Positions 28,017 through 32,453 of a stretch of DNA of 64,000 bases are shown here, in pieces; within the stretch, counting starts at the first letter, position 1; each line of letters starts with the position of its first letter. Under the pieces are notes generated by a model that saw nothing but the letters and a program-made list of their open reading frames with translations, ran no database searches and was not told the origin of the DNA. Made by a program: the position numbers and the translations under genes. This DNA comes from Thermodesulfomicrobium sp. WS. Its GTDB lineage: Bacteria > Desulfobacterota > Desulfovibrionia > Desulfovibrionales > Desulfomicrobiaceae. The stretch spans positions 1,488,001-1,552,000 of the forward strand of contig NZ_AP027130.1 in NCBI RefSeq assembly GCF_027925145.1, read 5' to 3'.

Positions 28017-28748
28017 ATGACCGAAGAGCGGCACACTCCAACATCCCCTCACGAGCTGACGCTTGATCCTAAGACCATTGATGTCTTGATTGCCAATATC
28101 ATTCCCACCTCAAAATATTTTGAGGTCCGGTTCGACAACCTGCAATACCAGGTCAATGAGATCAAAGAGGACATCAAAAACCTGGAAGACCGCATGGTCA
28201 AGCGCTTCGAGCAGGTGGACAAGCGTTTCGAGCAGGTGGACAAACGCTTCGAGCAAGTGGACAAGCGCTTCGAGCAAGTGGATGCGCAGTTCGTTGCTGT
28301 GCGGACGGAGATTAAAGATCTAGAAGACCGTATCAATAAGCGCTTCGAGCAGGTGGACAAGCGTTTCGAGCAGGTGGACAAACGCTTCGAGCAAGTGGAT
28401 GCGCAGTTCGTTGCTGTGCGGACGGAGATCAAAGATCTAGAAGACCGTATCAATAAGCGCTTCGAGCAGGTGGACAAACGCTTCGAGCAAGTGGGTGCGC
28501 AGTTTGTTGCTGTGCGGACGGAGATCAAAGATCTGGAAGACCGTATCAATAAGCGTTTCGAGCAGGTGGACAAACGCTTCGAGCAGCTGGATAGTAAGCT
28601 GGACAAGATCATCGAACGCATTGACCGTCGTATCGACGAGGGTTTGCGGGAAAACCGCAGTCAAATGATGCGCATGTTCACCTTTGCCATGACTTTTTCC
28701 GCCATTTCCATGATTGGACTCATCGGGAAGATGCTGCAACTTTTCTAA
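28017..28748 (+). CDS. coiled-coil protein with tandem heptad repeats and C-terminal membrane anchor
   Basis: A 243-residue protein with ATG after a good AAGGAGG. The N-terminal 60 residues are non-repetitive. Residues 62-192 are nested repeats of the heptad KRFEQVD, in blocks of 4, 3, 2 and 2, separated by three near-identical AQFVAVRTEIKDLEDRIN spacers. This predicts a long coiled coil. Residues about 220-241 are hydrophobic (FAMTFSAISMIGLIGKMLQLF), a likely membrane anchor. It resembles, in architecture only, small bacterial coiled-coil membrane proteins of unknown function. It is convergent with the glycosyltransferase gene. Repeat number probably varies between strains. Confidence 0.8.
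   Translation: MTEERHTPTSPHELTLDPKTIDVLIANIIPTSKYFEVRFDNLQYQVNEIKEDIKNLEDRMVKRFEQVDKRFEQVDKRFEQVDKRFEQVDAQFVAVRTEIKDLEDRINKRFEQVDKRFEQVDKRFEQVDAQFVAVRTEIKDLEDRINKRFEQVDKRFEQVGAQFVAVRTEIKDLEDRINKRFEQVDKRFEQLDSKLDKIIERIDRRIDEGLRENRSQMMRMFTFAMTFSAISMIGLIGKMLQLF
28200..28592 (+). repeat. nested tandem repeats (21-base heptad units within ~120-base units)
   Basis: In-frame repeats encode KRFEQVD heptads. The higher-order unit is several heptads plus a 54-base spacer (AQFVAVRTEIKDLEDRIN), present three times, with heptad counts falling 4-3-2-2 along the gene. Copies are nearly identical at DNA level, with only scattered third-position changes, which indicates recent expansion by slippage or unequal recombination. 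All changes in unit number keep the frame. Confidence 0.9.
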
Positions 28749-28763
28749 AACACCATGTGTTGT

Positions 28764-31100
28764 TTATTTTGAAAACCCTGCTCTCCAACCTGACGGCAGC
28801 TTTTCGCCCCGATCCGCGGCATCCAAGGCGGCGAGGAGAAACTCCTCCAACTGTCGGACAATCAGGGCGTCGGCAAAGAGCTTCTCCCGCGCCGCAAGGG
28901 CCGCCTGGCGGAAACGCTGCCGCCGGTGTGGATCGTTTGCCCAGGCCACGGTCACCTCGGCATATTCTTCCAGGCTGTTGGCCACCGGCACATCTATCAG
29001 TCCCATCTGTTGGTAGCCGCCGGCGACAATGCGTCCCCGCATAAAACGTCCCGGCCAGGTGACGATAGGCGTACCGTAATACATCGCTTCGTAAAAAGTG
29101 GTACCAGAACCAAAGTGCACCGTATCCAAAATGACATCAGAACGGGCCACAAGACCCATATAATCATTATGCTCTTGTCGAGGTAAAAATCGTGCTCTTC
29201 TATTGAGCATAGGAGCAGTGCACTGCCAACGGGAACGTAATCGATCCGTCCATTGCTCGGACATTCCTTCGATGAATACAAACTGTGCATTGTGGTCTCG
29301 TTTTGCAATTTCTTCCAAAACCTTGTCAAAATCAGGATGGTACTTGAATAAGTTTTGTGGACAAAAATATAGTGGACGATGATCATCAATCTGCCAATAG
29401 GAACGATCAGGAATTGAATCGGGAGCTACGATAAAAGCAAAATACGCCGGCAAATGATCGAGCAAAATCAGGCGCTCCGTGTAGTGATGTATGGCGTCAC
29501 ACGGCTCGATCACGTGTGAAGAGATGTAATAGTCAAGAGTATCGATTCCTGAAGTGCTCGCAATACCCCAGCTGGTGAATTGTACCGGCGCCAGACGGGC
29601 ACAGCCTAGGTATAAGTTTTTTTCTTCCGTAACATTCGGCAAGAACAGGGCATCGAGTGCCACCGCCGCCATTCGTTCCACTTGATGCGAATAGCCGGGG
29701 GGCAAATCCACCACCTGATCCGCCCACGTGTTGATTTTGGCGCGCAGGGGATCGTGTTTGGTTTGTGGGGTATGGATGACGAAGACCTCGAATCGGCTGC
29801 GGTCGATCTCGCGGATAAAGCCGCTGGTAAACTTGGCCACGGGGTGGTTACACAGGCCGTGGGAGCAGATGCCCAAGCGAATCCTGCGTCCCCGCGGCAT
29901 ACGCCACCGGCGGCAATGCGGGGCCGTGACATTGATCTGCGGTGCCTTGGCGCGAAATACGCGACACAGCGCCTCCATGAGCGGTCGGTCATCTTGTCCC
30001 TGGTACGGCAAACGAAAATAGTCGCCAACGACACTCTCTCCATCCAGCGTGCCCGTGGATCGCATGAGCTCTGCAATCCCTTGGGCAAATCGCTGTCTCC
30101 AGCGATCGATTTCCGCACGAGACTGGAAAACCCAGGGAAGAAGCAGCCAATATCGAAAGCGGTTCTCGAGGGTATCCGCTACCGCCAAGAGTTTTTCGAA
30201 GATGGCAGCAGCGTCCTCACAACGATCAACATTGCTCAAAGAAATACCGAGGAGTTGCAACACCTTTGGGGATTCTGGCGCCAATGCAAAGGCCTTTTGC
30301 GCATATTCCAGTGCAGCACCAATATCATATTGATCATTTGCAAGACAAGCGAGATTGATGAGCGGCACTTCATGCTTCGGGTTTATGGTATGGGCTCTGG
30401 TAAATGCATCTTTGGCTTGATCAAGACACATTAATTTGCGCAACATATTACCATAATTGTTCCATGCCACAAACGAATCTGGATCGATCGCTGTTGCCCC
30501 CTGAAGACTCTGCGCCGCCTGTTCCACATTGCCCGATTTATCTAAATAATCAGCGAGGATAATTCTGTAGCTGATATTTTCCGGATCCAATCGAATGCAA
30601 TTGCGTAGAGCTTCAATAGATCCGAAAATATCATTGTGTGCGTAGCGTAACTCAGCAAGATGCCTCCAGGCATCCACACTTTCTGGATTTTGACGACAGC
30701 ATTGCTCAGCACTGATAAGCGCTGCATCCCTTTGCTCTTGTATTCGTGCTTGCAGCTCTTCTACCGCGTCTCCGGAAAGTCCTCGATCCTGACCTTGGAC
30801 GAGCACTTTTTCTGCAGCATCCAGTTCACCACACTCCACCAGTGCTGCAATGAAGGAAATCCAATATTGGGCTACGTCAGGTCTCGCCTCCAAGGCAGTC
30901 TTGAGGTGTTGCAAGGCATCACGAGGAGTGCCTCTCTGCCGGGCCAACTGGCCTAGGTTATGCTGCGCATCGGGATGCGTGGGATTGATAGCAAGGATGG
31001 CGCGGTAGAGACGTTCGGCCTTGGCACGGCGACCCTTCCGATGCGCGGTGACAGCCGCCTCAAGGAGGCGCGCCTCTTGAGAGGCTGGCATACGGTTCAT
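28764..31100 (-). CDS. TPR-repeat GT41 (OGT/SPINDLY-like) glycosyltransferase
   Basis: A 778-residue protein. The N-terminal ~330 residues are TPR repeats (for example AERLYRAILAINPTHPDAQHN and IEALRNCIRLDPENISYR). The C-terminal part is an O-GlcNAc-transferase-like GT41 domain: RIRLGICSHGLCNHPVAKF, VQFTSWGIASTSGIDTLDYY, YFCPQNLFKYHPDFD, and LDTVHFGSGTTFYEAMYYGT. Such bacterial enzymes glycosylate Ser/Thr of surface proteins such as flagellins. ATG 31100 (MNRMPASQ) overlaps the methyltransferase stop (ATGA), so the two are coupled. Base composition looks mosaic: both ends GC-rich, the middle (about 29150-30900) clearly richer in A+T, suggesting transfer or recombination. Confidence 0.88.
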   Translation of the reverse strand: MNRMPASQEARLLEAAVTAHRKGRRAKAERLYRAILAINPTHPDAQHNLGQLARQRGTPRDALQHLKTALEARPDVAQYWISFIAALVECGELDAAEKVLVQGQDRGLSGDAVEELQARIQEQRDAALISAEQCCRQNPESVDAWRHLAELRYAHNDIFGSIEALRNCIRLDPENISYRIILADYLDKSGNVEQAAQSLQGATAIDPDSFVAWNNYGNMLRKLMCLDQAKDAFTRAHTINPKHEVPLINLACLANDQYDIGAALEYAQKAFALAPESPKVLQLLGISLSNVDRCEDAAAIFEKLLAVADTLENRFRYWLLLPWVFQSRAEIDRWRQRFAQGIAELMRSTGTLDGESVVGDYFRLPYQGQDDRPLMEALCRVFRAKAPQINVTAPHCRRWRMPRGRRIRLGICSHGLCNHPVAKFTSGFIREIDRSRFEVFVIHTPQTKHDPLRAKINTWADQVVDLPPGYSHQVERMAAVALDALFLPNVTEEKNLYLGCARLAPVQFTSWGIASTSGIDTLDYYISSHVIEPCDAIHHYTERLILLDHLPAYFAFIVAPDSIPDRSYWQIDDHRPLYFCPQNLFKYHPDFDKVLEEIAKRDHNAQFVFIEGMSEQWTDRLRSRWQCTAPMLNRRARFLPRQEHNDYMGLVARSDVILDTVHFGSGTTFYEAMYYGTPIVTWPGRFMRGRIVAGGYQQMGLIDVPVANSLEEYAEVTVAWANDPHRRQRFRQAALAAREKLFADALIVRQLEEFLLAALDAADRGEKLPSGWRAGFSK

Positions 31101-32215
31101 GACGGACAACCCTCCGGTCGGCACGGCACAGAGGTTTCGGTGCTCGGACGATAGGGATGCGGATCGCGAAGAAAATCGATGAGCCGACCCTCGTGCTCAA
31201 TGAGGATGCGGGAGGCAACAATACCTTCGCGCTCCATTTCCGCCAGGATGTCCCACGCCCGCCATTGGGTGGGAATAATGAGGACATCCACCGTCATTGT
31301 CTTGAGCACGTCGCGAAATTGAATACGCTGGCCAGTTCCCGGGACATACGTGCCCACTTTCTGAATGTCCGAATCCACCACCAAGGCAAACCGTTGGGCA
31401 TCGACATCGAAATGATGCATGAATGCTGCCGCCTTACCTGTTCCGCCCCAAATAGCCACTCGTGCCCCACTGCGCACGAGATCATCCAATTGCTGAGCAA
31501 TAGTAGTGCGCGCTGCCTGACTTTGCGCTGCAAAACACGCGGATGCTTGCGCCCGATCACGCAAGACTTCTGGCACCTGCAGGCGCACAACGCCAATCAA
31601 TACTTCGCCGTCGTAAGCGCGCTGGAGCTCCTCCACTTCACCGCAAGCGCCAAGGAGCTGAGAAAAAGACGAGGTGGTAAATTGCTGAGGGTGCTCGTAG
31701 AAGAGGTCAGCCAGACGACCAGTGGTCAGTACCCGATCAATGCAAGGCACTTCAATGAGCATGCGCACCGCATGGGGTACGGAATGCGCCGCCCAAGCCA
31801 TGCGGTGAAGAAACATTGCTGGTTCTTGGAAATGTTCCAGAACATGGCGCATAATGACGAGATGGGGCGCAAAGACGGGCACGTCCTGCCAGGGATCAAA
31901 GAGCCGACAGTGAAACGCAAAGTCGCCCGAGGCACTCCCGTTGGGGTCAAACCCGATGTAGCGGCCCGGCCAGCGTTGGGCCAAGGCATGGAGAAAATGC
32001 CCACACCCGCAACCGATCTCAATGACCGTGGGCTCTGGCGGGAGCTGCGCCAGGGTTGCCTCCACTAACCGGGCAATGTGGCGCTGCCAGCGCATACCGC
32101 TGTTGAACATGCGGTTAGGCTGCTCACTGTAGGGGATGGCGTCAGGAAAAAAGGCACGATTCCATACATGGCCGCATGCCGGGCAGCGCACGAAGTGCAA
32201 AGGAAGGCGCGCCAT
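31097..32215 (-). CDS. sugar C-methyltransferase-like SAM enzyme (N-terminus out of frame)
   Basis: The open frame gives 372 residues from ATG 32215. Features in order: one zinc-type CxxC (CPACGHVWN), a SAM-binding fold (VIEIGCGCGHFLHAL), HVLEHF, and a C-terminal domain with VAIWGGTGKAAAFMHHF, as in the zinc/methyltransferase/C-terminal three-part C-methyltransferases acting on NDP-sugars. Homologues have a second CxxC earlier. That CPVCG and FFDGG segment is encoded in the same frame upstream (about 32230-32310) but has no start codon in frame, because a (TG)12 repeat intervenes. As drawn, the protein would lack half the zinc domain. The gene lies just upstream of the GT41 gene. Confidence 0.75.
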   Translation of the reverse strand: MARLPLHFVRCPACGHVWNRAFFPDAIPYSEQPNRMFNSGMRWQRHIARLVEATLAQLPPEPTVIEIGCGCGHFLHALAQRWPGRYIGFDPNGSASGDFAFHCRLFDPWQDVPVFAPHLVIMRHVLEHFQEPAMFLHRMAWAAHSVPHAVRMLIEVPCIDRVLTTGRLADLFYEHPQQFTTSSFSQLLGACGEVEELQRAYDGEVLIGVVRLQVPEVLRDRAQASACFAAQSQAARTTIAQQLDDLVRSGARVAIWGGTGKAAAFMHHFDVDAQRFALVVDSDIQKVGTYVPGTGQRIQFRDVLKTMTVDVLIIPTQWRAWDILAEMEREGIVASRILIEHEGRLIDFLRDPHPYRPSTETSVPCRPEGCPS

Positions 32216-32381
32216 GTTTTGGGCGTCTTGGGCGCTCTTCGGCCATCCGAGCGTGGCCAGAGGGGCGGAACCACCGTCAAAAAACGGTGCTGCAAGGGGA
32301 TAGCCGCATACAGGGCAGGCAGAGGCCGTCAGCGGCTCGGAACATTCTGTGTGTGTGTGTGTGTGTGTGTGGAAGATGCAT
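32216..32381 (-). other. out-of-frame 5' coding extension of the methyltransferase (phase-OFF leader)
   Basis: Minus-strand frame continuous with the methyltransferase encodes ACPVCGYPLAAPFFDGG and PLATLGWP, normal for the N-terminal zinc domain. The nearest upstream ATG (32381, MHLP followed by HTHTHT from the repeat) is in a different frame and terminates at a TGA near 32280. Adding one CA unit (13) or losing two (10) would join this ATG to the methyltransferase frame. No strong ribosome-binding site precedes the ATG, a weakness of the model. Confidence 0.65.
32348..32371 (+). repeat. (TG)12 dinucleotide microsatellite
   Basis: Twelve perfect TG units (CA on the coding minus strand) lie between a candidate ATG and the body of the methyltransferase gene. 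Long dinucleotide runs in bacterial coding leaders are classic slipped-strand phase-variation switches. It is the only such run I saw in the window. Confidence 0.95.
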
Positions 32382-32453
32382 CACGGCTTTTTCATCTCGA
32401 TGAATAAGGTTCAAAACCATCGCCTATGAATTGCGATAGCGGCCTCAATGTCT

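Follow-up and report, generated by a model that had tools for sequence, protein, structure and literature searches.

Organization of the methyltransferase/GT41 locus

The Onikobe geothermal field is the source of Thermodesulfomicrobium sp. WS, a chemolithotroph isolated at 55 C and grown on H2; the original prediction for this locus had spoken of an apparent sulfate reducer, which is correct, and the strain is free-living and thermophilic as well (PMC10019150). Its chromosome is contained in a single contig of 2,357,780 bp, from which a stretch of 64,000 nucleotides (the window) was analyzed. The features of the locus are listed in Table 1.

Table 1. Features of the methyltransferase/GT41 locus (positions in the window)
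Feature	Position	Strand	Remark or basis
TPR/glycosyltransferase family 41 (GT41) gene	28764..31100	-	4-nt overlap with methyltransferase stop
Methyltransferase frame with PF08421-like zinc domain, Methyltransf_23 and Methyltransf_14	31097..32380	-	Open from TGA 32383 to stop at 31097
Internal ATG that opens the longest canonical ORF (372 aa)	32213..32215	-	Product would be without the first CxxC
34-residue OFF-phase reading frame MHLPHTHTHTHRMFRAADGLCLPCMRLSPCSTVF*	32277..32381	-	In-silico translation
CTG, rival start and sole plausible non-AUG initiation codon near the zinc domain	32330..32332	-	Ribosome-binding energy
(CA)12/(TG)12 microsatellite, encoding (HT)n in the putative N-terminus	32348..32371	-	Sequence
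ATG, most likely start of the full-length methyltransferase if the tract is in register	32379..32381	-	Ribosome-binding energy and start of the intact orthologue
GTG directly before ATG 32381, sharing its ribosome-binding site	32384-32382	-	Ribosome-binding energy
Leader, from the der stop codon to ATG 32381	32382..32453	-	Promoter/terminator scan negative

The stop codon of the methyltransferase gene and the start codon of the GT41 gene overlap as ATGA (31097-31100), in agreement with the predicted position of the GT41 gene downstream of and overlapping the methyltransferase gene. The pair had GC3 values of 0.61 and 0.53, compared with 0.82-0.84 in the neighbouring genes der and ilvE, and with this island-like composition it looks like an insert. 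The stop codon of der is located 72 nt upstream of ATG 32381, and the methyltransferase gene is predicted to be likely co-transcribed with der. Neither a sigma-70-type promoter nor a terminator was found in the leader by the promoter/terminator scan, and the Rfam search and RNA folding revealed no Rfam element and no unusual fold there. Because these scans gave nothing above chance, a role as a structured leader or in promoter spacing was dropped. A coiled-coil protein encoded at 28017-28748 contains near-identical 21-bp units in 96/117-bp blocks (GC 0.505 vs 0.629), and has a 79% identical paralogue at genome positions 1784927-1785589 and a relative in genome G001.

The dinucleotide tract and its reading frames

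The tract is perfect and begins, on the coding strand, 7 nt past ATG 32381-32379, which is one frame off from the long methyltransferase frame. The latter is open upstream to TGA 32383-32381, encodes CIFHTHTHTHTECSEPLTASACPVCGYPLAAPFFDGG..., and shows no further damage over about 1.25 kb. Its first in-frame ATG, GTG, or TTG is that at 32215, and the CPVCG and FFDGG motifs are encoded upstream of this codon. The original prediction had described a zinc domain in frame but without a start codon, separated by (TG)12 from an out-of-frame ATG at 32381. This description was confirmed with two refinements: the absence of a start applies to ATG, GTG, and TTG, the non-canonical codons CTG 32332 and ATC 32377 being present in frame, and the frame of ATG 32381 runs further upstream, to GTG 32384 and ATG 32420.

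In-silico translation joined ATG 32381 to the enzyme at 7, 10, 13, or 16 units, with full products of 426 and 428 aa at 10 and 13 units, respectively. The sequenced allele of 12 units yielded 34 aa, and alleles of 11 and 14 units yielded 16 and 18 aa, respectively; at all unit numbers from 8 to 15 other than 10 and 13, translation ended after 14-36 residues. The outcomes predicted for 10, 12, and 13 units were thus reproduced. The tract lies inside the reading frame and its unit number sets the frame, as phase variation requires, and its length exceeds the cut-off of 6 units used in calling dinucleotide phase variation (PMC6321876).

Dinucleotide shuffling gave an expectation of 0.01 TG runs of 12 nt per window. 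By pattern search, no other TG tract in the 2.36-Mb genome reached six units (12 nt), and no (AG)6 was present in the genome. In a sample of 464 kb, consisting of the window and 20 further stretches, 33 dinucleotide runs had 4 copies, none had 5-11, and one had 12. The census covered dinucleotide runs in the sample and, genome-wide, pattern searches for TG and AG; within this scope, no long dinucleotide tract other than (CA)12/(TG)12 was detected in the WS genome. Among 101 genomes (WS and relatives), (TG)10 or longer occurred in just three, and no second strain carrying the tract was found. The position of the tract is only modest evidence, because about 5% of single tracts placed at random would be expected, a priori, to start no more than 50 nt past a start codon.

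Other repeats were noticed in these genomes. Two Desulfovibrionales genomes carry TG/CA tracts of 24 units (G057, L070:2198-2245) and 18 units (G160, L071:1906-1941), which are intergenic as far as open frames show and lie upstream of an apparent LuxR/MalT-type regulator and a sensor-kinase gene, the gene names being judged by eye from translations. In WS, the start of an Acyl_transf_3 gene (L099:1271-2386, minus strand; PF01757, E 7e-16), which adjoins a Bac_transf sugar transferase gene, is preceded at a distance of about 38 nt by an A13 tract (L099:2428-2440; genome 2022428-2022440); this would make it, after the methyltransferase gene, another surface-glycan gene next to a long repeat, with a possible promoter-spacing switch. 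A T16G11 tract (L117:2974-3000; genome 2357473-2357499) follows a terminator-like hairpin near a CRISPR-repeat-like sequence. The long poly-A/T loci at 1202792, 2301748, and 2357473 are intergenic and were rejected as coding switches.

Identity and conservation of the enzyme

In Pfam searches, the SAM domain matched PF13489 (Methyltransf_23, E 4e-14) and the C-terminal domain matched PF08484 (Methyltransf_14, E 7.6e-11), both above the cut-off, and the zinc domain matched PF08421 at 23.5 bits, under the cut-off of 31.3. Reading the upstream frame supplies both CxxC pairs, which align with 5t6b and with homologues. The nearest solved structures in the PDB were sugar 3-C-methyltransferases (E about 2e-9), with the alignment beginning at residue 18 and including both CxxC pairs. 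An AlphaFold model built from two sequences had a mean pLDDT of 54 and was set aside as too poor. The WS protein shares a two-CxxC zinc domain, a SAM domain, and a C-terminal domain with the sugar 3-C-methyltransferases 5t64/5t6b, TcaB9 (3ndi), and the D-mycarose enzyme (4rv9); those are characterised enzymes with established substrates, whereas the WS enzyme is placed by family only. The sugar C-methyltransferase of the original prediction is a putative, family-level assignment.

Order-wide (348 genomes) and phylum-wide (395) searches returned distant homologues and one true orthologue, 53% identical, in a genome from another family of the phylum (G599); a search around G599 gave distant homologues only. 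When GTDB contigs were scanned with the WS protein alone, no match was obtained, and a two-sequence profile retrieved only the sister MAG (G002), which holds the single congeneric orthologue (61% identity to the WS protein). The G002 copy (contig 1, L026:1200-1290) is without the (TG)n tract and carries a frameshift in the zinc domain, caused by a 5-bp tandem duplication, (TGCGC)2, right after MNLIPTSCAICCHRWAVSFFDGGYA. It adjoins sulfotransferase and APS kinase genes, and the methyltransferase/GT41 pair does not stand behind der in G002. The G599 orthologue is intact and starts with MSAAHRLVATLCPIC at a place equivalent to that of the WS tract. It is encoded directly downstream of a TPR/GT41 gene whose product is 38% identical to the WS GT41 (L121:8107-12028). 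Because G599 also carries the two genes side by side, the methyltransferase and GT41 form a recurrent pair, in reversed order relative to WS.

In the comparison with G002, pN/pS was 0.42 before ATG 32215 and 0.40 in the body, and with G599 it was 0.38 in the N-terminal part and 0.44 in the body, with identities of 59% vs 54%. The "missing" N-terminus is therefore under the same constraint as the body. Both CxxC pairs are kept in the homologues aligned, nearly all of which have a canonical start no more than a dozen or so codons ahead of the first Cys. These comparisons indicate that the upstream zinc-domain part belongs to the protein, as had been predicted, and if the gene were annotated from ATG 32215, the first canonical start, half of the enzyme's zinc site would be lost.

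Start sites and alternative explanations

Start sites were scored by the energy of pairing to the 3' tail of 16S rRNA, for which a general bacterial sequence was used. The reference sample was the best site in each of 190 long ORFs; its median of -6.8 kcal/mol is inflated, because the best of several candidates was taken per ORF. ATG 32381 and GTG 32384 scored -5.1 kcal/mol each, which is ordinary, and ATG 32420 is disfavoured, the ribosome-binding site pointing to 32384/32381. The sites of CTG 32332 (-1.8 kcal/mol, bottom 9% of the gene sample) and ATG 32215 (-0.7 kcal/mol, bottom 3%, the worst of the methyltransferase candidates) are poor, and the efficient start at 32215 that the original prediction had considered thus finds no favour in the computed energy. 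Together with the start of the intact orthologue, these energies support ATG 32381 as the best of the three main candidates. A separate, strong ribosome-binding site (-10.9 kcal/mol) serves the GT41 gene, for which reason the proposed control of GT41 through coupling to the methyltransferase switch is weak and not supported; a polar effect of the switch on GT41 is possible.

If translation started at CTG 32332 (MTASACPVCG...), the enzyme would always be ON, and the tract would lie in the leader, affecting translation efficiency at most. This codon is in frame, five codons before the first Cys, and inside the start range of the homologues; however, besides its poor ribosome-binding site, CTG start codons are rare in bacteria, and in the intact G599 orthologue the aligned CTG is preceded, 6 codons upstream, by an ATG. 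We consider constant expression from this codon improbable. Very improbable is a functional short form of 372 residues from ATG 32215. Its Met is the first canonical in-frame start and is common to WS, G002, and G599, but it is not kept in most distant homologues, its ribosome-binding site is the poorest, and the product would be left with a single CxxC pair, where the homologues inspected keep two. That the tract length is a sequencing or assembly error is hardly credible. Dinucleotide tracts are error-prone on some platforms, and the published consensus comes from one assembler; HiFi errors, however, fall mainly in homopolymers. The WS chromosome was sequenced with PacBio HiFi reads at 93x (PMC10019150).

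A serious rival is loss of function, because the sole congeneric orthologue is frameshifted too. The gene, acquired with GT41 or alone, would then be dispensable, the microsatellite expansion having broken the WS copy and the 5-bp duplication that of G002, with no useful switching. The frame was disrupted independently in each of the two congeneric copies, near or in the part encoding the zinc domain, most relatives are without the gene (matches at E <= 1e-15 in 11 of the 348 order genomes), and the composition of the pair is island-like, all of which speaks for such decay. On the other hand, the remaining frame is open and constrained in WS and G002, and WS carries the only type of damage capable of reverting at a high rate. 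That two congeneric copies are broken in one region, each by its own tandem-type indel, is as compatible with repeated selection for OFF as with plain dispensability. On balance, we regard simple loss of function as rather unlikely.

A candidate phase-variable methyltransferase gene

The reading that we favour, and hold to be somewhat probable, is that the locus is a candidate translational contingency (phase-variable) locus of the simple-sequence-repeat kind, functional or recently functional. The real gene would start at ATG 32381 (or GTG 32384) with MHLP, after which (CA)n would be read as alternating His-Thr; in register, the product would continue as (HT)n-ECSEPLTASACPVCG, followed by the three domains of a sugar-type C-methyltransferase (zinc-binding, SAM-binding, and C-terminal). 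Slipped-strand mispairing in the population would alter n, with the whole enzyme produced at n = 7, 10, 13, or 16 and an early stop at other n within 8-15, and the sequenced strain (n = 12) would be OFF. The original reading of 12 units as the OFF allele of a full-length gene is sustained because the zinc domain is conserved, ATG 32381 is the best start, and the G599 orthologue starts equivalently. The likely target would be a glycan or glycosylated protein handled together with the adjoining GT41 enzyme, and phage or surface diversity may be the selective reason.

The layout is that by which pathogens switch surface genes on and off through repeat slippage. It is closely parallel to that of the MmyCI type III DNA methyltransferase gene of Mycoplasma mycoides subsp. 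capri, in which a dinucleotide tract also lies in the coding region and 12 AG units are OFF by a premature stop and 10 units ON; that repeat is AG rather than CA/TG, the enzyme modifies DNA, the organism is host-associated, and its ON and OFF clones are experimental, whereas the WS switch is proposed from sequence (PMC3498834). The CT-repeat switch of Helicobacter pylori oipA likewise has a dinucleotide repeat in the 5' region and switches frame by slipped-strand mispairing, but it concerns a gene for an outer membrane protein in a human-associated bacterium, and its status was compared between isolates, in contrast to the one genome here (PMC10564699). Phase-variable surface-structure genes of Haemophilus and Campylobacter also have repeats in or near reading frames; these are mostly tetranucleotide or poly-G/C, multi-locus, and host-associated, in contrast to the one coding tract of a hot-spring sulfate reducer (PMC2651432, PMC6321876).

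The open-access literature yielded no direct precedent of a phase-variable sulfate reducer or thermophile. With a single clean candidate in a hot-spring sulfate reducer and public HiFi reads (DRR424563), the proposal is partly testable without new sequencing. We suggest, tentatively and with some doubt, that this free-living thermophilic chemolithotroph may possess a working contingency locus by which methylation on a surface glycan or glycoprotein would be switched, perhaps as a phage defence, and that the same gene may have been turned off in the sister species by a different tandem-repeat event.
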